Part shown: positions 4,139-26,755 of the stretch, piece after piece
Layout: the number at the start of each line of letters is the position of its first letter
Position numbering within the stretch: position 1 is the first letter of the stretch
Source of the DNA: a virus
IMG/VR virus record: IMGVR_UViG_3300048597_000681
Coordinates: 1 to 38,974 of that record
Reading direction: 5' to 3' (one strand)
Length of the DNA stretch: 38,974 nt
Notes under the pieces: generated by a model
What the model was told of the DNA's origin: nothing
Database searches by the model: none
What the model saw: only the letters and a program-made list of their open reading frames with translations
Program-made: the position numbers and the translations under genes

Positions 4139-4331
4139 GTGGGTGTGGGTGATCGAGTATTGGCCGGCGGAGGTGAAGATCGGCACGCGCAGCCTGATCA
4201 ACCTCAAACGGGATGTGTTGGAGACCGTGGCCGAAGGGGAGCTGCGGTTGCAATTGATCGGGGAGAGTGGCGGTTACGTCTGGTTCTACGGCAAACAGCG
4301 CCACTACACGGTGGACATCAACGCAGCGTGA
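4125..4331 (+). CDS. Small hypothetical beta-rich protein
   Basis: GTG 4125 (agg about 6 bases upstream) yields a 68-residue protein overlapping the end of the alpha-CTD-like gene by 14 bases. It is rich in aromatic residues and alternating strand patterns (KWVWVIEYW, GGYVWFYGK). No Cys clusters or membrane span are visible. The overlap suggests translational coupling. It precedes the methyltransferase by 13 bases. Function unknown. Confidence 0.5.
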   Translation: MPPGKWVWVIEYWPAEVKIGTRSLINLKRDVLETVAEGELRLQLIGESGGYVWFYGKQRHYTVDINAA

Positions 4332-4344
4332 GAGGGTTGGGGCG

Positions 4345-5307
4345 ATGGATAAAATTCGAGCCGTCGATTTCTGTTGCGGTGCCGGCGGATGGGCGGTGGC
4401 TGCGCGAGGGCTGCCAATCGAGTTCGTCGCCGTCGCGGATCGGGCGGCAGACTGCATGGAGACCTGGCGGATCAATCACCAAGCCGACCACCCCAAAGCG
4501 ATGCGGTTCCTGGGTGATCTGTCGATTCGCGACAACGTCGATTTGATTCTGCATCACTCCACGCCTGTAGACCTGGTGCTGGGTGGCATTCCCTGCGAAC
4601 AGGTTTCCACGGCACGGGGCCAAGGTGGCAACGGCGTCGCGCAAGGGGACGAGTTGGCGCAGTGGCATTCGCTGATCGATCACACGATTCGATTCGTGCG
4701 CGACAGCGGGGCCCGGTGGTGGGCGATCGAGGATGTGATCCAGGTCGAGAAGCACCTGCCGCTGCCGCTCGAGCTGGGGAACATTCCCAGCGTTCGTATC
4801 AACGCGGCCCATTTTGGCCCGCAGCGCAGGCATCGCACGTTTTTAGGAAAATTTCCACGGCCGAAGCCGATCTATCGCGACGGTGAATGCACGATCGCGG
4901 ACCTGATTGAAGAGGGGCCACATCGCACGGTCCCCAATGAAGAGTCCTTCACGCGCCAGGGGATTCGCGGAAGAAACACCGGCCGAGTCGACAACGACAA
5001 AGTGCGCGTGCTGCCGCTCGACGATGCGGCCCCGACGATCTTGGGGTCGCTCGACAACGGCAGCCGCCAGCGCCGCGCCTTCACGATCGCACAGCCCGAC
5101 GGTCGTGTGCGATTGATGACCTGGCGTGAGGCGGCACGCATCCAAGGATTCCCGCGAGATTTCCTGTTCGCCGGCAGCGAGCTGCGCACGCACAAGATGG
5201 TCGGCCAAGCCATCCCAATCTACGTGGGCCGCGCGATCCTGGAGGGCGTCGTTCGCCAATGGGAATCGCAGCGCACCAAACAGTTGTCAGCAGCAACGGA
5301 GGCATAG
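4345..5307 (+). CDS. C5-cytosine DNA methyltransferase
   Basis: The 320-residue protein carries the ordered motifs of DNA (cytosine-5) methyltransferases. These are motif I FCCGAGG (9-15, SAM binding), motif IV GGIPCEQVS with catalytic Cys84, motif VI AIEDV (127-131, with Glu129 but Asp in place of the usual Asn), motif VIII GPQRRHR (158-164), motif IX around RVLPLDDAAPTI and motif X VGQAIP (286-291). The target-recognition region between VIII and IX is short. No restriction enzyme partner is nearby, so self-protection against host restriction is most likely. ATG 4345 is preferred over starts inside the preceding gene. Confidence 0.9.
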   Translation: MDKIRAVDFCCGAGGWAVAARGLPIEFVAVADRAADCMETWRINHQADHPKAMRFLGDLSIRDNVDLILHHSTPVDLVLGGIPCEQVSTARGQGGNGVAQGDELAQWHSLIDHTIRFVRDSGARWWAIEDVIQVEKHLPLPLELGNIPSVRINAAHFGPQRRHRTFLGKFPRPKPIYRDGECTIADLIEEGPHRTVPNEESFTRQGIRGRNTGRVDNDKVRVLPLDDAAPTILGSLDNGSRQRRAFTIAQPDGRVRLMTWREAARIQGFPRDFLFAGSELRTHKMVGQAIPIYVGRAILEGVVRQWESQRTKQLSAATEA

Positions 5308-7529: not shown

Positions 7530-8582
7530 GTGGGTGCCAACAGCAAAATCGAGTGGACGCATCACACCTTCAACCCGTGGATGGGGTGCACCAAGGTGGC
7601 GGCTGGTTGTGAGCATTGTTACGCCGAGGCGCTGACCAAGCGGACCGGGCTCGTAAAGTGGGGACCGTCGGGAACCCGCGAAGTTACCAGCGAAAGATAC
7701 TGGTTGCAGCCACTCAAGTGGAACCGTGAGGCTGAGGTAGCGGGTGAAAGGCGGCGCGTGTTCTGCGCCAGCCTGGCCGACGTGTTTGAGGATTGGACGC
7801 AGCCGATCGCTGTCGGCGATGGTTACCTGGAACTTGACGACGTCCGCAGAGAGCTGTTCGCTCTGATCGACGACACACCACAGCTCGATTGGCTGCTGCT
7901 GACCAAACGCCCCGAGAACATCCGGCGCATGATGGTTGAGCATTGCCTGCAAAAGGTGCCGGGGCACGTTCGACAAAACGAGGGTGACGGTTACAAGATT
8001 CGTCGTCGTGAGAATGTATGGCTGGGGACCAGCATCGCCGAGCAGCAAGACGCCGATCGAAACATCCCCGAGCTGCTCAAGTGCCGAGACCTGGCGTCGG
8101 TGTTGTTCCTGAGCTGCGAGCCGCTGTTGGGGCCAGTTGATTTAACTCCCTGGTTGGTGTGCGCGTGTAAGCCAACCGGCGAATGCTGCGATCTGTGCCT
8201 AACTGGCGGGCCGCAGTGGGTGATCGTGGGTGGGGAGAGTGGGCCTGGTGCCAGGCCGATGCATCCGGCATGGGCTTGGAATCTTCGGAACCAGTGCAAC
8301 GCGGCCGAGGTGCCCTTCTTTTTCAAGCAGTGGGGCGAGTGGCTGCCGCTGGACTCGTACCGCTTTGAGGTGCATGGCAGCGACTTCGATCGCCACCCCA
8401 CCGCGATGATGCTGCCCAATGGGCTGCGCGACGATGAGGTAACTCGCGAGGCCTGCTTTGCTGCCCAATCGCTCCCGACATCGTTCGCGCGCGTGGGGAA
8501 GAAAGCCGCGGGCCGCGAGCTGGACGGACGGACGTGGGACGAGCTGCCGGCGGCCGACCAAATTTCCTTACCAAATAGGTAA
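7530..8582 (+). CDS. DUF5131 (phage Gp37/Gp68) family protein
   Basis: The N-terminus IEWTHHTFNPWMGCTKV followed by GCEHCYAE is the signature of the phage Gp37/Gp68 family (DUF5131), 350 residues here. Cys20, Cys27 and Cys30 form a cluster like those that hold an iron-sulfur centre in radical-SAM-related proteins. The block VIVGGESGPGARPMHP is also typical. A second cluster around 215-225 (CACKPTGECCDLC) is an extra possible metal site. Function is not established; a nucleic-acid modification or repair role is an inference from the radical-SAM-like motif. Start is GTG 7530, seven bases after the previous stop. The end overlaps a palindrome at 8567-8583. Confidence 0.88.
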   Translation: MGANSKIEWTHHTFNPWMGCTKVAAGCEHCYAEALTKRTGLVKWGPSGTREVTSERYWLQPLKWNREAEVAGERRRVFCASLADVFEDWTQPIAVGDGYLELDDVRRELFALIDDTPQLDWLLLTKRPENIRRMMVEHCLQKVPGHVRQNEGDGYKIRRRENVWLGTSIAEQQDADRNIPELLKCRDLASVLFLSCEPLLGPVDLTPWLVCACKPTGECCDLCLTGGPQWVIVGGESGPGARPMHPAWAWNLRNQCNAAEVPFFFKQWGEWLPLDSYRFEVHGSDFDRHPTAMMLPNGLRDDEVTREACFAAQSLPTSFARVGKKAAGRELDGRTWDELPAADQISLPNR

Positions 8583-11802: not shown

Positions 11803-13152
11803 ATGGCACCCAACACCACCCCCACCACCGCGTTGGCTTCCAAGAGCCTGTTTCGCTCGAAAACCTTCTGGCTGAATGTGGCCGCCTTGACGGTGGCCGC
11901 GTTGACCGGCCTGCTGGACGCGCAATTGATCCAGGACAATCCGCAGATTGTGTCGGTGATCATGGGAGCGATCGCGGTGCTGAACGTGCTGCTACGCACG
12001 ATCACCACCAAGCCGACCCACCTGGTCGTGTTGCTAGTGGGCCTGTTGCTCACCGCCGGGCCGGCGACTGCCCAGACGGTGCGGATCATGAGTGCGCAGG
12101 CGTATGACGAGATCTCGCGGCTGCTGCCGCGCGTCAGCGATGAGCGGGTGCAAGCGGCCATCGAATCGCCCGACACGGTCTGGTGGAGCGAACAGGAAGT
12201 TCCCCGGGCGTACCAGAATCACGACGCGGTGGGTGGCTTTCACTGGGTGGGCTACAACATTTCCGGCGGACTGGATCCGGCGGGCAATGCGGGGCGAGAG
12301 TTCCCCTGGCGGCACGCGGCGGGTACGGGCAACGTGCGGAACCTGCGCGAGCTGCGTTTTCTATCGCTGCCGGCGCGTGAGGATGGAAGCCGTTGGCCGG
12401 TGGTGACCTGGTGGGAAAACCTGCCCTATGACGCGGGGGAGCATCTGCGGTGGCGGTACCCGACCGGCACGATTGTGGGAGAGCTGCTGCTGGAGCAAGA
12501 CGAGCGCGGCAAGTGGTGGTGCTTTGAAGTGCGGATTCGCGAGCGCGAGCCGGGGGAATGGGGCTGTGACAGTTTTTGGCCCATCCCCAATGCCGAGTCG
12601 CTGGCCGCACACGTGCCGGGTTACACGGCCCAGGTCGATGGCGAACAACACGTGGGGAATCATCATCCGTATCGCACGGTGATTGACGTGCGCGCCAAGG
12701 TGAGCGTGTTACCGGAGCTGCCGGCGGACCAGGTGCGGGCGCTCCTCGATCGACCGTTTGAATCGCGGTTGCTGGGGCGATGGCAGGGTGAGATTGTCGC
12801 GCCGCGATCGAATCAGACGTTTGGCCTGTTTCCGGCGGGCTACCGCGTGGAGGCGATCGAGGTCCGCCGCGAGAGCTGCAACCGGTGCCATCACACGACG
12901 TTGATGCACACCAACCAATTCGATCACCCCGGCCGTGATTGGTATGGCCGGGTGCCGGGTGACGACACCGTGTTTGCTACGCCGATGCTCGACCCGCGGT
13001 GCGTCAGCAGCACCGGGGCAACGTTGCAACCAAGGTTCCGTGAATCGTTCCTGCGCGCCGGGTTCATTGAGCCGTTTGATCGCGCCAAGCACCCGACGGA
13101 AATCTATCCGCCGATCCCCGAGCTGGAGGCCAATTTGTATGGGAAGCGTTAA
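11803..13152 (+). CDS. Holin-like N-terminus fused to secreted CxxCH heme-motif protein
   Basis: The 449-residue protein begins like a phage holin: SKTFWLN at 18-24, hydrophobic spans at about 22-39 and 48-66, and LLRTITTKP at 63-71. A third hydrophobic, signal-like segment follows (74-90, ending in ATA before QTV). The remaining 360 residues look exported and contain CNRCH at 359-363, the c-type heme motif, with Met368 as a possible ligand and a downstream WYGRVPGDD motif. Known families supply each half, but I know of no such fusion. It could tether a cytochrome-like protein to the inner membrane, or be a holin gene that has fused with its neighbour. It overlaps the protease gene by 14 bases. 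Confidence 0.7.
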
Positions 13153-14431
13153 ACGATCGTTGTTTCTGTTGCCGTGGGTGGTGTGGGCAATTTTGATCGC
13201 ACCGCCGGCGCATGCCGGGTTGAAGGATTGCTACGACGCGACGGTCCGCGTGCATTGCGGTGGGACCGGCAGCGGGACGGTGATCGACCTGCAGCAAGGG
13301 CAAGCCTGGATTCTGACCAACGCGCATGTGGCCAGCCGCTCGATCGGCGAAACGGTGCGGGTGGAGTTCTTTCGCGCGGGGCAGCGGTATCAGGCGGTCG
13401 AAGGGCGGATCGCCTGGAAGATCATGGATCGGCATTCGCGGTCGATGGACGGTTTGGCGACGCGCGACATGGCCCTGGTGACGGTGGAGATTGCCCGGTT
13501 GGGCTGGAAACCGAGCGTGGTACCGTTGGCCCCGGTGGGAACGAAGTTGGTGGATGGCCAGCATGTGTTTTCGATTGGTTGCCCGCAGGGTGGTTGGCCG
13601 ACCGGTTGGAGTGGGCACCTGACGCAGGCCGAAGGGGAGGTGATTGGATTTTGGCCGCCGCCGCATGAAGGGCGCAGCGGCAGCGCATTGTTCGATGCCG
13701 ACGGCCAGCAGGTGATCGGTCTGGTGGCCTGGGGTGGCGACGGCTGGGGCGGAGCGATGCCGGTGGAAGTGATTCACCGTGCCCTCAGGGAAAGCCGTGC
13801 TCTACAAGAGAGCCAAGGGGACCTTGAGACGCCCGGGCCGTTGGTGCCCGTTCGCCCAGGCCGTGTACTTCCAGGACCGGGCCCGGCGATCGATACCACG
13901 CAACTGGCGCAAGTCGATTGCGGGAGCGGCGGTTGCTCCCGCGGCGGTGGCGGGGGCATGAATGGCGGCCCAGTGGGAAACCACTACACGCGGCGCCCGG
14001 AAGGGGGTTTCTTACCAAAAACCCCCCAACAACCCGGCAGCAACCAGGGTGAATCCACCGTGACAACGGGCTGTCAGTGCGACCCCGGCAAACTCGACGG
14101 CCTGCAGGCGCAACTGGACAAGCTGCGGGGCGAGCTGGGCCAGGTGGTCGAGCTGGTGGGGCAGGTCAAAGACTTGGCCGGTGTGCCAGGCCCGCCAGGC
14201 GAGCCGGGCCCCAAAGGTGATACGGGACAAAAAGGAGACACTGGCCCCCAGGGGCCGGAAGGCAAACAAGGGCCAATCGGCCCGGAAGGAAAACCGGGCC
14301 CAGCGGGCAACGTGGGCGCGGCGGGTGCGGTGGATCTCGATGCGCTGGCGGACCAGTTGGCGGACAAGGTGAAACAGCGGATCGCCAACGAGCTGCGGAT
14401 CCAGATCGAGCGAGTGGAAACGAAGAGGTAA
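13139..14431 (+). CDS. Secreted trypsin-like serine protease with collagen-like repeats
   Basis: The 430-residue protein has a signal peptide (1-26, cleavage after AHA). It has a trypsin-fold domain with His63 in TNAHVAS, Asp110 in TRDMALV and Ser180 in EGRSGSAL. A Gly/Pro-rich Cys-containing linker (225-310) and a coiled-coil helix (317-347) follow, then 17 Gly-X-Y triplets at 348-398 ([12 protein letters not shown] and so on) and an amphipathic C-terminal helix (399-430) that may trimerise the collagen stalk. ATG 13139 lies inside the previous gene. Export to the periplasm or cell surface is inferred. A lysis, receptor-processing or virion role is possible, and none is shown by the sequence. 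Confidence 0.82.
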
Positions 14432-21099: not shown

Positions 21100-21270
21100 A
21101 TGTTCCATCCATGCGAGGCGTGCAAGGGCTGGGGCGTGATCGGGTGGCTATGGTGGAAACGCAAGTGTGAGGCGTGTGGTGGAAACGGTCATGCCGCAAC
21201 ACCACCCCGTGCGCCAAGTCCGCCACCCCCATTCAAATGGCCACCACCACCGTATTGGGCCAGGCTGTGA
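21100..21270 (+). CDS. Small CxxCxGxG zinc protein
   Basis: A 56-residue frame with gaagagg about 10 bases upstream carries CEACKGWG (5-12) and CEACGGNG (about 24-31), the DnaJ-type CxxCxGxG zinc knuckle twice, followed by a Pro-rich tail (PPRAPSPPPPFKWPPPPYW). Two such motifs can form one zinc centre. It overlaps the HNH gene by 34 bases in another frame. Its role in packaging is unknown. Confidence 0.55.
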   Translation: MFHPCEACKGWGVIGWLWWKRKCEACGGNGHAATPPRAPSPPPPFKWPPPPYWARL

Positions 21271-21590
21271 AAGATCATCGCTACAGGCCCAGACGCCTAT
21301 CGAAGCCTGCCAAGCGTGTGGTGGTGGATGCGATCGCCAAGCGGTCAGGGAAGTACGGCCGACGGTGGCGACGGTTCCGCTTGGTGTGGCTCAGTGAGCA
21401 TCCCTGGTGCGTGGACTGTGAGCGGGAAGGGAAGCTGACCGCGGCCACCGACGTGGACCACATTGAGCCCCTGCAGGAGGGTGACGAGGTGTGCGACGAG
21501 ACGAACGTGCAAAGCCTGTGCAGGTCGCACCACAGCCGCAAGACGGCCCGCGAGTGCGGCTGGTCCAACACGCGCAAGCCGAAGAGCTAG
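21237..21590 (+). CDS. HNH endonuclease
   Basis: ATG 21237 gives 117 residues with a typical beta-beta-alpha-metal HNH motif: CVDCEREGKL (58-67), DVDHIEPL (72-79, catalytic His75), Asn90 in ETNVQSLC and CRSHHSRKT (95-103). In many cos phages an HNH protein beside the terminase is needed for DNA cutting during packaging, and this position (upstream of TerS and TerL) agrees. A homing-type nuclease is the alternative. An Arg-rich N-terminal part may bind DNA. Confidence 0.88.
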   Translation: MATTTVLGQAVKDHRYRPRRLSKPAKRVVVDAIAKRSGKYGRRWRRFRLVWLSEHPWCVDCEREGKLTAATDVDHIEPLQEGDEVCDETNVQSLCRSHHSRKTARECGWSNTRKPKS

Positions 21591-21828: not shown

Positions 21829-23640
21829 ATGACCACCCGCCGCCGCAAGCGCGCCGCCACCTCGAGCGCGCCGGAAACCACCACCGCCGAGGTGCGCGAC
21901 TCGAGCGCGTCGCCCGCTGCGTTGCGCAACCGCATCAAAGAGCTGCGCAGCGTTACCGCCGCCGAGCTGCGCAGGAACCCCGCCAACTTCCGCGAGCACC
22001 CCGAGCGGCAACGCCGCCGCCTGCAGGAAGTGCTCTCCGAGATCGGGATTGCCGATGCGTTGATCGCGCGCGAGTGTGACGACGGCACGTTGGAGCTGAT
22101 CGACGGACATCTGCGGGCGGACGTCGCCGCCGATGCGGCGCTGCCGGTGTTGGTGCTCGACGTGAACGAAGCGGAAGCCCATCAACTGCTGTTGTCGCTC
22201 GATCCGTTGGCCGCGTTAGCGGAGACCAACAAGGAACGCTTGGCCGCGCTGTTGAGCCAAACGAAGTTTGCCGGCAGTGCCATGCAAGAGCACCTGGCCG
22301 AGCTGCAAGAGCAAACCAAGCAGCCCGCGCAACAGTCGGTCGCTCCACCCGACAAGGATCTGGTGACGATCGAGCCCAAGTTCAGCGTATTGATCGAGTG
22401 CGAGAATGAGCCCGATCAGCGCGTGGTGCTGGAAGAGCTGGAGCGACACGGTTTGCGCACGCGCGCGCTGACCGTCGGTTTGCCGCCCGTGGTCGATGCC
22501 ACGCCGCCGCCGCTGCCGGCGGTGCCGGGTGAGAAGGTGATTGAGCGCAAGGTTTCAATCAAGCGGACCGCCCGCGTCAAGCAGCTCGAAGGAATGTTTG
22601 ACGTTCCGCCCGCCCGTGAGACCCGCAAGAGCTGGCGGATCCGTGCGCCGCTCGATCGACCGTGGCAGATCGGCCTGATCGTGGGGCGCAGCGGGGCCGG
22701 CAAAAGCACCATCGCGCGGGAGTTGTTCGGTGATCGGCTGGTCGACAACTGGGAGTGGCCGGCGGATGCCGCGATTGTCGATGCGTTCCCCGAGTCGATG
22801 GCGATCGCCGAAGTGACGGGGTTGCTGTCGGCCGTCGGATTTTCTTCGCCGCCCAATTGGTTGAAACCGTTTCGCGTGTTGTCGAATGGTGAGCAGTTCC
22901 GGGTCAACCTGGCCCGGACGTTGGCCGAGTTCCCCGAGCTGGCGGTAGTCGACGAGTTCACCAGCGTGGTCGATCGACAAGTCGCACAGATCGGCAGCGC
23001 GGCGGTGGCTAGCGCCGTGCGCAAAACAGGCCGGCGGTTTGTCGCGGTGACGTGCCACTATGACGTGGAGGATTGGTTGCAGCCCGACTGGACGCTGGAC
23101 CCCGAGCGTGGCGAAGTCCAATGGAGGTCGCTTCGGCAACGCCCGGAAATTCAGCTTCGAGTTCGACGGACTGACACCCGCGCGTGGCGCCACTTCCGTG
23201 GCCATCACTATTTAAGCCACGATTGTCACCCCGCCGCGCATTGTTTTGTCGGGGACGTCGACGGGCGGCCGGCCGTGTTCGCGGCGGTGTTGTATTACCC
23301 GCACGCCAACGGCGGTTGGTGGCGTGGTCATCGCACAGTCTGCCTGCCAGATTATCAGGGAGTCGGTATCGGCAACCGCATGAGTGAATTGATCGGCGGT
23401 GTGTTCGCGGCCACGGGCAAGGCGTACCGCAGTACGACCAGCCATCCGAGCATGATCGCGCATCGTCTGCGGTCGCCCATGTGGGCGTGCATCCGAGCGC
23501 CGGGATTGATGCAAGCACCGTCAGGCAGGCGGGCGCATTCGATCCGCAAAACCAACGCGGTGTCGCGGGTGACGGCCGGTTTCCAATACGTAGGCCCGGT
23601 GCGTGTCGATGAGGCCCGCGCGTTGGGGATCGTGGCCTAA
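21829..23640 (+). CDS. ParB-ABC ATPase-GNAT fusion, probable DNA modification
   Basis: Three domains are visible in 603 residues. The first is ParB-like (about 35-170) with LIDGHLRAD at 90-98. The second is ABC-type ATPase (about 265-430) with Walker A GRSGAGKST (286-294), signature-like LSNGEQ (351-356) and Walker B LAVVDE (371-376). The third is a GNAT acyltransferase (about 450-600) with the acyl-CoA loop LPDYQGVGIG (506-515). ATPase-GNAT fusions occur as COG2401, and phage ParB-ABC-GNAT proteins have been predicted to acylate modified DNA bases, akin to phage Mu Mom. The setting next to packaging genes fits modification of virion DNA; the substrate is unknown. ATG 21829 has a weak Shine-Dalgarno. 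Confidence 0.85.
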   Translation: MTTRRRKRAATSSAPETTTAEVRDSSASPAALRNRIKELRSVTAAELRRNPANFREHPERQRRRLQEVLSEIGIADALIARECDDGTLELIDGHLRADVAADAALPVLVLDVNEAEAHQLLLSLDPLAALAETNKERLAALLSQTKFAGSAMQEHLAELQEQTKQPAQQSVAPPDKDLVTIEPKFSVLIECENEPDQRVVLEELERHGLRTRALTVGLPPVVDATPPPLPAVPGEKVIERKVSIKRTARVKQLEGMFDVPPARETRKSWRIRAPLDRPWQIGLIVGRSGAGKSTIARELFGDRLVDNWEWPADAAIVDAFPESMAIAEVTGLLSAVGFSSPPNWLKPFRVLSNGEQFRVNLARTLAEFPELAVVDEFTSVVDRQVAQIGSAAVASAVRKTGRRFVAVTCHYDVEDWLQPDWTLDPERGEVQWRSLRQRPEIQLRVRRTDTRAWRHFRGHHYLSHDCHPAAHCFVGDVDGRPAVFAAVLYYPHANGGWWRGHRTVCLPDYQGVGIGNRMSELIGGVFAATGKAYRSTTSHPSMIAHRLRSPMWACIRAPGLMQAPSGRRAHSIRKTNAVSRVTAGFQYVGPVRVDEARALGIVA

Positions 23641-23705: not shown

Positions 23706-23803
23706 TGAAAACCCCTGCAATTCCCAGGATTTTCCCTCCTCCCACGCACCGATGGGGTTCTTAGGATGCGTCTCAGTTGATGACGTTTGCAGGAGCCCAA
23801 GCC

Positions 23804-24238
23804 ATGACGATCGACGAAGTAAAACGGGAAGCCAAGGCCGCGGGGATCGCCTGGCGGTTGGTGCAAGACGCAGCCGCCGAGCTGCTGGAGCGTGAGCGTG
23901 AATCGCGAGCGCATGCCAATGAAGTGCGCGAGGCGGCCTGGTGCTCTTACACCTCCAAGGGCTGCTGGCCCTTCTGGCGGCATGGCTTCGCGGCACGGTT
24001 GGCGCACAAGGTTGAGGGTGGGGATTACACCCGGATCCCTGGCTACGATACGTTGGCCGCCTCGATCGCCAGCCGTTACCCCGAATATGCCGGCGACAAT
24101 GGGTGCGCCGCGCTGTGGGACTTCTTGCTGTCGCCCTATGAACGCATGAAGCCGCGAGCGGACATCTACGCTGAGGCGCTCGAGTGGGTCAAGAGTGAGC
24201 AAGGCGCGCCCGCGTATTGTGTCGGGGAGGGTTGGTAG
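23804..24238 (+). CDS. Hypothetical protein of the packaging region
   Basis: ATG 23804 with aggag at 23791-23795 yields 144 residues. The first half is a helical coiled-coil-like segment (about 5-45, AAELLERERESRAHANEVRE) and the second half is globular with Trp and Cys (CWPFWRHGFAARL, YAGDNGCAALWDFL). It may be a DNA-binding accessory of the terminase by position only. Family not recognised. Confidence 0.55.
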   Translation: MTIDEVKREAKAAGIAWRLVQDAAAELLERERESRAHANEVREAAWCSYTSKGCWPFWRHGFAARLAHKVEGGDYTRIPGYDTLAASIASRYPEYAGDNGCAALWDFLLSPYERMKPRADIYAEALEWVKSEQGAPAYCVGEGW

Positions 24239-24240
24239 TC

Positions 24241-24714
24241 ATGTTCGACGCAATGCCCCCACGCAAGAAACCTGCGACGGTCCCCGCGCTGACGATCCTG
24301 CAACCGTGGGCCTGGGCAATCAGCCACGGACCCAAGCGGATCGAGAATCGCACCTGGAAGCCGCGCTATCGCGGCCCGCTGTTGATTCACGCGGGGCGCG
24401 GCAAAACCGCCTTGGATTACGCTACGCGCTGGCTGGAGTCGCAAGGGTTGACGGTACCCGAGGATCTTGCCTATGGCCAAATCGTTGCAGTCTGCCAGCT
24501 CGCGGCGGTCGTGCCGTTGGAAGCGTGCAAGGTCGATCCGTTTGCCAGCGGCCCCGAGTGCTGGCAGTTGTCGGACGTGCGGGCGCTGGCCGAGCCGATC
24601 AAGTACCGCGGCCGGCAAGGTTTGTTCCCCGTCCCGCTGACGGCGCTGTCGGATGAGGTCCGCGCATGGCACCAAGAGGCCGTCGGCCAAAGTCGCCCAA
24701 TGCTAAAGCCCTAG
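24241..24714 (+). CDS. ASCH (PUA-like) domain protein
   Basis: The 157-residue protein shows the ASCH pattern: LTILQPWAWAISHGPKRIENR near the N-terminus (strand, helix and conserved Glu-Asn-Arg), then GPLLIHAGRGK and a later LAYGQIVAVCQLAAV strand. ASCH domains bind nucleic acids or modified nucleotides, so it may read or process the modified DNA made by the neighbouring fusion protein; this is inference. ATG 24241 follows ggaggg at about 24226-24231; ATG 24277 is a later option. It overlaps the small terminase by 49 bases. Confidence 0.8.
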   Translation: MFDAMPPRKKPATVPALTILQPWAWAISHGPKRIENRTWKPRYRGPLLIHAGRGKTALDYATRWLESQGLTVPEDLAYGQIVAVCQLAAVVPLEACKVDPFASGPECWQLSDVRALAEPIKYRGRQGLFPVPLTALSDEVRAWHQEAVGQSRPMLKP

Positions 24715-25136
24715 CGGGCAATCCGGGCAAGCGACCGCTGCCGGAAACGCTGGCGGTCGTTTCGACCACACCTGAACCGCCCGCCTTCTTAGACGGGGCG
24801 GCGCGCGATGAGTGGGATCGGTTGGTCAATCAGTTGGGACCGACCAAGGTGCTGACGGAGCTGGACCGTGGCACGCTGGCCATGCTCTGCCAGAGTTACA
24901 GCGACTACGTGGCCGCCTGTCAGAACGTGGAGCGCTTCGGCGAAGTCATGGCCGGCGAGAAGGGGGCTTACATCAGCCCGTACGTGCACCTGAAATCGAT
25001 GGCGTTCAAGCAGTACAAGGCGCTGTTGGCGGAGTTCGGTTTGAGCCCGTTGGCCCGCGTGCGGATTGTGGTAGGGCGGGAGAAGCCCAAGGATCCGTTG
25101 GCCGCGTTCGATGCTGAGTTCAGGGACGCGGTATGA
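24666..25136 (+). CDS. terS: Terminase small subunit, P27 family
   Basis: The 156-residue protein fits P27-type small terminases: the basic start RGRRPKSPNAKALAGNPGKR, the PPAFLDGAARDEWDRL block, a helical core with LTELDRGTLAMLCQSY, and a C-terminal AEFGLSPLARVRI. It would recognise the packaging site and regulate TerL. ATG 24666 lies inside the ASCH gene, and the stop overlaps the TerL start by four bases. Confidence 0.9.
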   Translation: MAPRGRRPKSPNAKALAGNPGKRPLPETLAVVSTTPEPPAFLDGAARDEWDRLVNQLGPTKVLTELDRGTLAMLCQSYSDYVAACQNVERFGEVMAGEKGAYISPYVHLKSMAFKQYKALLAEFGLSPLARVRIVVGREKPKDPLAAFDAEFRDAV

Positions 25137-26755
25137 CCCGCAAGACGGCAGGACGCCGCAAGGTTGACGGCGAGACCAAACAATGGTTTCGCGATAAGAG
25201 CGACCCACGCGCCGCGCGGCGGGGTTGCTACTTTTCCGCGCAGCATGGTTTGCGGGCGGTCGCGTTCATCGAACGATTCTGCAAACACTCCCTGGGCGAG
25301 TTCGCGGGCAAGCCGTTCAAGCTGCTGGCCTGGCAAAAAGACTTTGTGATGCGCCTGTTCGGCTGGCGGCGCAAGGATGGCCGGCGGCGGTTCACTCGCG
25401 CTTTTCTGTTCGTGCCCAAGAAGAACGGTAAGAGCACGCTGCTGGCGGCCATCGGTTTGTATTTGCTGGTGGGCGACGGCGAGCTGGGCGCGCGAGTCTA
25501 CAGCGCGGCCAACGATCGTCAGCAGGCATCGATCATCCACGGCGAAGCCATGCGGATGGTCGAAATGTCGGAGGTGCTCGACAAACACCTGAAGATCAAC
25601 TACAGCACCAAGGTCATTGCCGACACGCGGACCAACAGCAGCTATCAGCCGCTGGCCAAGGGGCATCGGTCGCAGGAAGGGATCAACGCCCACGGGCTGT
25701 TGATCGACGAGCTGCACAGTTGGAACGATATCCGCTATTGGAACTCGCTACGGTACGCCTTCCGCGGCCGGCGGCAGCCGCTACAGATTGTCATCACCAC
25801 GGCCGGCGACGATGATCTGTCGGTGTGTAAAACGCAGTACACCTACGCCAAGCAAGTCATCAGCGGCGAGGTAGACGACGATCGATTGCTGGCGTTGATC
25901 TTCGAGGCCAGCCCCGAGGATGACTGGAAAGACCCCGAAGTGTGGAAGAAAGCTAACCCCAGCTTTGGCGTCACGATCGACCCGGAAGAGTTTGCCCACG
26001 ACGTCGAAGAGGTGATGCAACTCGGACCGGCCGATATCGCCACCTTCAAGCGCTATAGTTTGAACATCTGGAGCACGGGAACCAACCCGGCAATTCGGGC
26101 CGAGGATTGGCAAGCGTGCGCGTTGCCCTACACGCTGGACGAGCTGGAGGGCTGCCCTTGCTTTGGCGGGTTGGATCTTTCCAAGACACAGGACACAACC
26201 GCCTTTGTATTGGTGTTCCCGTGGGGCGAGGATAGGTTTCGAGCATGGCCATGGTTCTGGTTGCCCGAGGCCCGCATTCACGCCAAGGATGCTCCCCCGC
26301 AATATTTGGCTTGGGCCAAGTCGGGCCACCTCGAGGTGTGCCCAGGACGAACGATTGATTATCAGTTTGTGAGGCGGAGGATTGTCGAGATCTCGCAGCG
26401 GTTCCAATTGGTCCGCTTTGCCTACGATCCGCACAACGCAGAGACCTTGATCCAACAGTTGGAAGAAGAGGATGGGTTGGAGCGCAAGGAGTTTACCCAG
26501 AACTACAACAGCTACAACGATCCTTGCCAGCAGTTCAGCCGGTTGGTCATCAACGGAACCTTTCACCACGCCGATCATCCCGTGTTCACCTGGCAGGTCG
26601 GCAATGCCCAATTCAAGACGAGCGCGGAAGGATACGTGCGACCGGTGAAACCACCTCACGAGCAGCCCCGCAAAATCGACGGTGTGGTTAGTGCGATCAT
26701 GGCGCTGGCGTTGGCGATGGAACCCGATAACACTCCCAGCATTTCCGTCCTATGA
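25133..26755 (+). CDS. terL: Terminase large subunit
   Basis: The 540-residue protein is the packaging motor and headful/cos nuclease. Motor: Walker A-like VPKKNGKST (94-102) and Walker B LLIDE (189-193) with an adjacent coupling motif ITTAG (221-225). Nuclease: GLDLSKTQDTTA (346-357, Asp348) and a later KIDGVV block near the C-terminus. This is the Terminase_1/HK97-like class. ATG 25133 overlaps the TerS stop. A tiny membrane protein gene begins at its stop. Confidence 0.95.
   Translation: MTRKTAGRRKVDGETKQWFRDKSDPRAARRGCYFSAQHGLRAVAFIERFCKHSLGEFAGKPFKLLAWQKDFVMRLFGWRRKDGRRRFTRAFLFVPKKNGKSTLLAAIGLYLLVGDGELGARVYSAANDRQQASIIHGEAMRMVEMSEVLDKHLKINYSTKVIADTRTNSSYQPLAKGHRSQEGINAHGLLIDELHSWNDIRYWNSLRYAFRGRRQPLQIVITTAGDDDLSVCKTQYTYAKQVISGEVDDDRLLALIFEASPEDDWKDPEVWKKANPSFGVTIDPEEFAHDVEEVMQLGPADIATFKRYSLNIWSTGTNPAIRAEDWQACALPYTLDELEGCPCFGGLDLSKTQDTTAFVLVFPWGEDRFRAWPWFWLPEARIHAKDAPPQYLAWAKSGHLEVCPGRTIDYQFVRRRIVEISQRFQLVRFAYDPHNAETLIQQLEEEDGLERKEFTQNYNSYNDPCQQFSRLVINGTFHHADHPVFTWQVGNAQFKTSAEGYVRPVKPPHEQPRKIDGVVSAIMALALAMEPDNTPSISVL

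Follow-up and report, generated by a model that had tools for sequence, protein, structure and literature searches.

The locus described here raises the question of what a phage would do with a single protein that joins a ParB-like segment, an ABC-type ATPase and a GNAT acyltransferase, and that is encoded just upstream of its terminase genes. The source DNA is a 38,974-base IMG/VR virus record (IMGVR_UViG_3300048597_000681), and by "the window" we mean this record as a whole. An initial annotation had placed the three modules in one chain beside the terminase genes and had pointed to modification of DNA bases, with the Mom acyltransferase of phage Mu as a parallel.

The triple-fusion gene and its neighbours

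The features of the window that are needed for the argument are as follows.

4267-5307, + strand: C5-cytosine DNA methyltransferase (PF00145, 2.5e-20; PC motif present)
21174-21590, + strand: HNH endonuclease gene, upstream, in the packaging neighbourhood (PF01844, 7.8e-7; phrog_589, 7.6e-25)
21829-23640, + strand: triple-fusion gene, ParB-like + ABC ATPase + GNAT (ATG start, 603 aa)
21934-22197, + strand: ParB/Srx-like N-terminal domain, residues ~36-123 (IDGHLR at 91-96; PHROG ParB families)
22381-22473, + strand: conserved ParB tail element, residues ~185-215 (FSVLIECENEPDQ...GLRTRAL), from the alignment
22474-22536, + strand: proline-rich linker, standing where unfused relatives have the stop/start overlap
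22537-23103, + strand: ABC ATPase domain, residues ~237-425 (catalytic motifs, fold match)
23152-23598, + strand: GNAT acyltransferase domain, residues ~442-590 (motifs, family Pfam matches, fold)
23777-24238, + strand: putative downstream gene of 153 aa, with no significant Pfam or PHROG family match
24217-24714, + strand: ASCH-domain gene (PF04266, 5.5e-5; phrog_3193, 1.4e-37)
24666-25136, + strand: terminase small subunit (PF05119, 6.8e-22)
25133-26755, + strand: terminase large subunit (PF03354 and PF20441)

The three modules do lie in one ORF of 603 aa, and the ATPase core is complete, as had been read from the sequence earlier. Pfam ABC_tran matches the protein above its cut-off (4.1e-8), and Walker A (GRSGAGKS, 286-293), signature (LSNGE, 351-355), Walker B with its glutamate (VVDEF, 373-377; Glu376), D-loop (VVDR, 380-383) and H-loop (H410) are all present, DxFP apparently occupying the Q-loop position. 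In the GNAT part we recognised HHYLS (459-463), R502, QGVGIG (510-515, the acyl-CoA motif QxxGxG) and SHP (538-540). When 37 relatives were aligned nearly all of the ABC motifs proved invariant or nearly so, and of the motifs of the two domains together nearly all were retained. Single-sequence Pfam matches to the GNAT part are below threshold (PF13508, 0.0036; PF00583, 0.01); across the ABC-GNAT family Acetyltransf_1 is matched by 73 of 83 members, at best with 1.8e-10. PHROG 11143, an unnamed family which spans ABC and GNAT, matches residues 238-590 at an E value of 1.8e-105.

The N-terminal part is, judged by its PHROG matches and by the related ParB genes upstream in relatives, a member of the ParB/Srx superfamily. 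PHROG ParB families match the protein at 7e-8, and phrog_498, a family of ParB-containing DNA methyltransferases, matches residues 23-188 at 2.4e-12. In the alignment the tail element corresponds to the sequence with which the stand-alone ParBs of relatives end. An identity as the ParB of a ParABS partition system, in which HTH and dimerisation domains come after ParB_N, was rejected: Pfam detected neither an HTH nor a ParB C-terminal domain in the protein, and behind the ParB part stand ABC and GNAT. Since the domain is divergent (Pfam ParB_N 0.07, below threshold, and zero tblastn matches of the window ParB part among phages), its role on DNA may be altered in the window, and the stand-alone ParBs of relatives were used as queries in its place. 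An ABC transporter was likewise rejected: the chain reads ParB-ABC-GNAT, and its neighbours are the HNH gene, the gene of no family, the ASCH gene and the terminase, with no permease or transmembrane partner among them.

The AlphaFold2 model of the full chain has a pLDDT of 82.6 and a pTM of 0.63, with values mostly above 93 in ABC-GNAT and mostly of 71-95 in the ParB core. Its ABC domain matches transporter-type cassettes (Z 15.9, rmsd 2.8, 180 residues). Because the structure search with the full-length model was dominated by the ABC part, the GNAT was also modelled on its own (AlphaFold2, pLDDT 92.5, pTM 0.86). Structure prediction had been set beforehand as the test for a GNAT fold; the fold is present, with matches to GNAT structures of Z up to 13.9 (rmsd 3.4, 137 residues), and on the strength of the model the C-terminal domain has a true GNAT fold. 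Protein N-acetyltransferases (RimI, Naa50) account for several of the top matches, and those returned by Foldseek include TmcA, the tRNA-Met cytidine acetyltransferase (2zpa, E 9.6e-5).

The position beside the terminase genes also holds, the small-subunit gene beginning at 24666 and that for the large subunit at 25133. The 153-aa gene probably shares a transcription unit with the triple-fusion gene. The C5-methyltransferase reported earlier for the same genome is there too, 16.5 kb away from the triple-fusion gene; as its gene is apparently intact, layered protection of the DNA by the two enzymes is possible. ASCH genes are recurrent, non-universal neighbours of ABC-GNAT, following the GNAT in L082, L083 and L084 and lying near it in L022, L162 and L190; only direct matches on the same strand were kept, and iterated local searches, which drifted to antisense ORFs, were discarded. 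The best solved relatives of the window ASCH protein are human ASC-1. It is possibly a reader or handler of a modified base; a YqfB-like N4-acetylcytidine hydrolase was set aside, given the resemblance to ASC-1 and the absence of YqfB among the matches.

Elsewhere in the window, positions 7530-8582 encode a DUF5131 protein (PF07505, 6.6e-80) which matches the PADLOC candidates PDC-M41B/M30B; DUF5131 also occurs near ABC-GNAT in L095, L097, L100 and L106. At 12935-14431 one protein combines a trypsin-like peptidase domain with a collagen-like repeat, here in a phage genome.

ABC-GNAT loci and the partners of ParB

From viral scans, genome scans and annotated phages 169 ABC-GNAT loci were collected, of which 90 are non-redundant. 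ParB is fused in four of the 90 (the window, L002, L095 and L162), and a separate ParB gene lies no more than 250 nt upstream in 73, another 7 loci having it within 2.5 kb; ParB is thus fused or at most 250 nt upstream in 77. Where the genes are unfused, the ParB stop and the ABC start typically overlap by 18 nt, suggesting translational coupling, and in some loci ABC and GNAT are likewise split into separate genes. L002, L095 and L162 share the architecture of the window, with linkers where others have the stop/start overlap, which argues that the fusion is no sequencing artefact; it is real but rare. In the tree the window and L002 are sisters, with L162 far removed, and the fusion therefore probably arose at least twice. 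In 44 of the 90 loci the 4.5 kb downstream include a gene for the terminase large subunit, and a further 12 loci are too short to tell. Planctomycetes gave most of the matches in the genome scan, from which we infer that the window phage probably infects a planctomycete.

One and the same ParB can be followed by different effectors. Between the Streptococcus prophages Javan447 and Javan523 the flanks are 85-98% identical in DNA and the ParB region 96.5%; past the ParB domain Javan447 runs on into a DNA methyltransferase, whereas in Javan523 the ParB closes with the conserved tail, and ABC, GNAT and ASCH genes come behind it. The Porphyromonas phages 012a_381OKJP and 007a_Bg4 share a left flank of 3.2 kb at 91.7% and a right flank of 93 bp, and the slot of one phage is filled by a Mom-like gene, that of the other by ABC-GNAT with a formyltransferase homologue. 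Komp_PAO1_1 carries a Mu-like Gam gene, and its ABC-GNAT comes after the tail genes, the position that mom has in Mu. ParB is paired with Mom in Microbacterium phage Appa; in E. coli phage 673R7 its partner is a TAGT glycosyltransferase, and the pair immediately precedes the terminase genes. Aeromonas phage PX29 carries Mom and ABC-GNAT together, and the two are therefore not simply redundant. In Streptococcus phage IPP14 (L188, 3471-4565) the same type of ParB, in the terminase slot, is fused to a C-terminal region that is annotated DUF4417 in related phages and is a candidate effector.

Viral contigs were also queried with ParB alone, to avoid selection on ABC-GNAT (census loci L310-L389). 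A first alignment of mixed ParBs was too diverse for searching and a closer subset was used; the query consisted of four ParBs, whose own partners are ABC-GNAT (two), TAGT (one) and a methyltransferase (one), and matches were ranked by their similarity to one of these four. By Pfam and PHROG, the fused or next gene in 61 non-redundant loci specifies an N6/N4 methyltransferase (33), ABC-GNAT (9), Mom (8), TAGT (6), a C5 methyltransferase (2) or a D12 methyltransferase (1). Assuming that no protein was counted twice, a DNA-modification enzyme is fused to or follows ParB in 59 of the 61. Local seed models recovered 54 of these at the effector position, against 3 matches in the 424 remaining ORFs of those loci. 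Two census ParBs are followed by a nucleotidyltransferase-like (L389, 4590-5108) and a glycosyltransferase-like gene (L386, 1164-2024), which are possibly further DNA-modification effectors.

Proposed function and competing explanations

DNA acylation by ABC-GNAT proteins was predicted by Iyer et al. 2013 and is restated, with phage pT24, in PMC7824862. The family and its predicted activity are thus already known, and it is the swap, census and donor-gene results that we consider new. The literature searched yielded no experiment on ABC-GNAT and no modified base in any ABC-GNAT phage. PHROG 11143 has the same ABC and GNAT core as the window protein, and the homologous region of the pT24 protein is 35.8% identical; ParB is covalently fused in the window protein, whereas most relatives encode it in a gene of its own that lies upstream and overlaps. 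Fusions of ParB and DNA methyltransferase of the phrog_498 type share with the window the type of ParB module and the terminase-adjacent slot and differ in the effector. The COG2401-type systems of SSU5-like phage-plasmids and Rhizobium phages contain the same three components, but as separate genes, and their GNAT is divergent from that of the window family (hhalign probability 26, E 0.0007). The RNA cytidine acetyltransferases TmcA/NAT10 likewise couple an ATPase to a nucleobase-acylating GNAT, but the ATPase is a RecD-like helicase instead of ABC and the substrate is RNA.

Mu Mom has been assigned in the literature to the GNAT superfamily. The proposed parallel with it stands as far as function is concerned, Mom (PF25680) and ABC-GNAT occupying the same slot in the Porphyromonas phages and Mom too being paired with ParB in other phages, but it does not extend to sequence. 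Mom has no ABC ATPase, and the profiles of GNAT and Mom gave an hhalign probability of 0.1, against 0.1 to 1.7 for unrelated control pairs. PF25680, which was found in true Mom proteins, matched neither the window protein nor the 83 GNAT members. Mom and the window GNAT both show an HY motif and, further on, an invariant arginine; such short shared motifs (HHYLS/KHYS, Arg before the next strand) are a lead, and kinship by sequence was rejected.

We regard the 603-aa protein as most likely a phage DNA base acyltransferase. Its core role in DNA modification, which the initial annotation had taken from published prediction, is supported by the swaps with a methyltransferase and with Mom, by the ParB census and by the prediction itself as given in PMC7824862. 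Going by the range of effectors found with ParBs of this kind elsewhere (methyltransferases, Mom, glycosyltransferases), the ParB domain and its tail would attach to DNA, or be loaded onto it, and bring in the effector. Two ABC domains, whose motifs are intact, would then dimerise around ATP and, in an ATP-dependent step, distort the duplex or expose a base; the GNAT, to judge from its fold and context, would move an acyl group from acyl-CoA to the exocyclic amine of that base. The location just upstream of the terminase genes suggests action before packaging, and acylation would shield virion DNA from restriction. If this is true, an ATP-driven class of DNA acylation joins the anti-restriction toolkit of phages, the recurrence of the ParB domain beside many DNA-modifying enzymes is explained, and a new nucleobase is predicted.

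GNATs far more often modify proteins and small molecules than DNA, and other roles have to be weighed. The GNAT might belong to DNA modification without being a stand-alone base acyltransferase, either capping an amine already on the base or acting on nucleotide precursors. To this one could attribute the TAGT-type glycosyltransferase directly upstream of ParB in L141, the ASCH neighbours (nucleoside/nucleic-acid binding) in several lineages and the formyltransferase homologues adjoining in phages of three host phyla. However, the swap partners (methyltransferases and Mom) act directly on DNA, and most loci, including the window, are without recognised genes for a first hypermodification step near ABC-GNAT; we consider this role unlikely.

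That the protein serves packaging or partition, with ParB and ABC acting at the terminase on the DNA of the phage while the GNAT acylates a protein such as the terminase or portal, seems to us quite improbable. ParB and ABC are classic DNA-organising modules and the terminase genes are directly downstream in the window and in about half of the loci, but ParB is paired as well with methyltransferase, TAGT and Mom, some of these pairs in the same terminase-adjacent slot, which therefore behaves as a modification slot, and in Mu-like phages ABC-GNAT stands in the mom position, away from the terminase genes. A weapon against the host or other phages, in which the ParB part would be a nucleotide-degrading or DNA-nicking enzyme and the GNAT would inactivate a host protein, is very improbable indeed: the gene lies beside the terminase and not among early genes, and the effector swaps involve DNA-modification enzymes. 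Precedents for it are ParB/Srx proteins, which can be nonspecific nickases or NTPases and include a ParB-methylase fusion with nicking activity (PMC5512222), and phage GNATs such as Rac, which modify host RNA polymerase (PMC7824862). PADLOC did return a match to mad3 (9e-10), but it covers just 50 residues around the ABC signature, and the MADS defence reading was rejected.

Candidate genes for acyl supply

Genes that could provide an acyl donor adjoin ABC-GNAT in some branches.

L086, 6080-7191: PanD and family III CoA-transferase-like genes
L104, 1508-2573: the same
L190, 4664-5699: the same
L103, 9220-10191: the same
L088, 1799-2446; L085, 7068-7685; L224, 4911-5384: formyltransferase homologues directly after ABC-GNAT (Gordonia, Pseudomonas, Porphyromonas phages)

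In Rhodococcus phage Jace (L086) the genes after ABC-GNAT are PanD (PF02261, 2e-33) and one resembling family III CoA-transferases (PF02515, 2e-8). Homologues of both adjoin ABC-GNAT in L103, L104 and L190, and L131 has them at a short distance; the CoA-transferase occurs without PanD in L048 and L132. The four loci with the adjoining pair comprise the Rhodococcus phage, planctomycete loci and a virus contig of 102 kb. With the L048 CoA-transferase as query only two viral contigs were matched, and in both ABC-GNAT adjoins. PanD retains Y-x-G-S, its processing motif, and the CoA-transferase retains GDT-x-x-G, the aspartate of which is the candidate catalytic residue. As the latter protein has some 225 aa and matches just the first part of the Pfam model, its activity is a candidate one.

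The adjacent PanD and CoA-transferase genes suggest beta-alanyl-CoA as the donor in one branch. The window contains no PanD, CoA-transferase or formyltransferase homologue, and its donor is therefore probably one of the common acyl-CoAs of the host, for example acetyl-CoA. A fuller scheme, tentative and on balance somewhat doubtful, would have ParB as a loader with interchangeable effectors (methyltransferase, Mom, glycosyltransferase, ABC-GNAT) and branches of ABC-GNAT that bring their own donor chemistry. The PanD/CoA-transferase branches would lead from aspartate, by decarboxylation, through beta-alanine and beta-alanyl-CoA to a beta-alanyl nucleobase (+71.04 Da); in another branch the formyltransferase homologue would supply or cap the group; and the window, as a member with the fusion, would draw on a simple acyl-CoA. 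No report of a beta-alanyl nucleobase was found in the literature searched. Together with the swaps and the census, the donor genes turn a vague prediction of 2013 into specific masses to be sought in named, culturable phages.

Komp_PAO1_1, Porphyromonas phage 007a and 10 Gordonia phages have a formyltransferase homologue (Formyl_trans_N, PF00551, 3e-17) after ABC-GNAT. These proteins keep the His of H-P-S and are without the Asn two residues earlier that belongs to the canonical N-x-H of bacterial tRNA formyltransferase, so that their chemistry is putative. All genuine phage homologues found of the Gordonia formyltransferase adjoin ABC-GNAT; a match in MT835528 was excluded, since it shows the canonical NVH motif, has no ABC-GNAT in its vicinity and is an ordinary tRNA formyltransferase of bacterial type. 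In the tree the association with CoA-transferase appears in about three places, and the formyltransferase clade is single.
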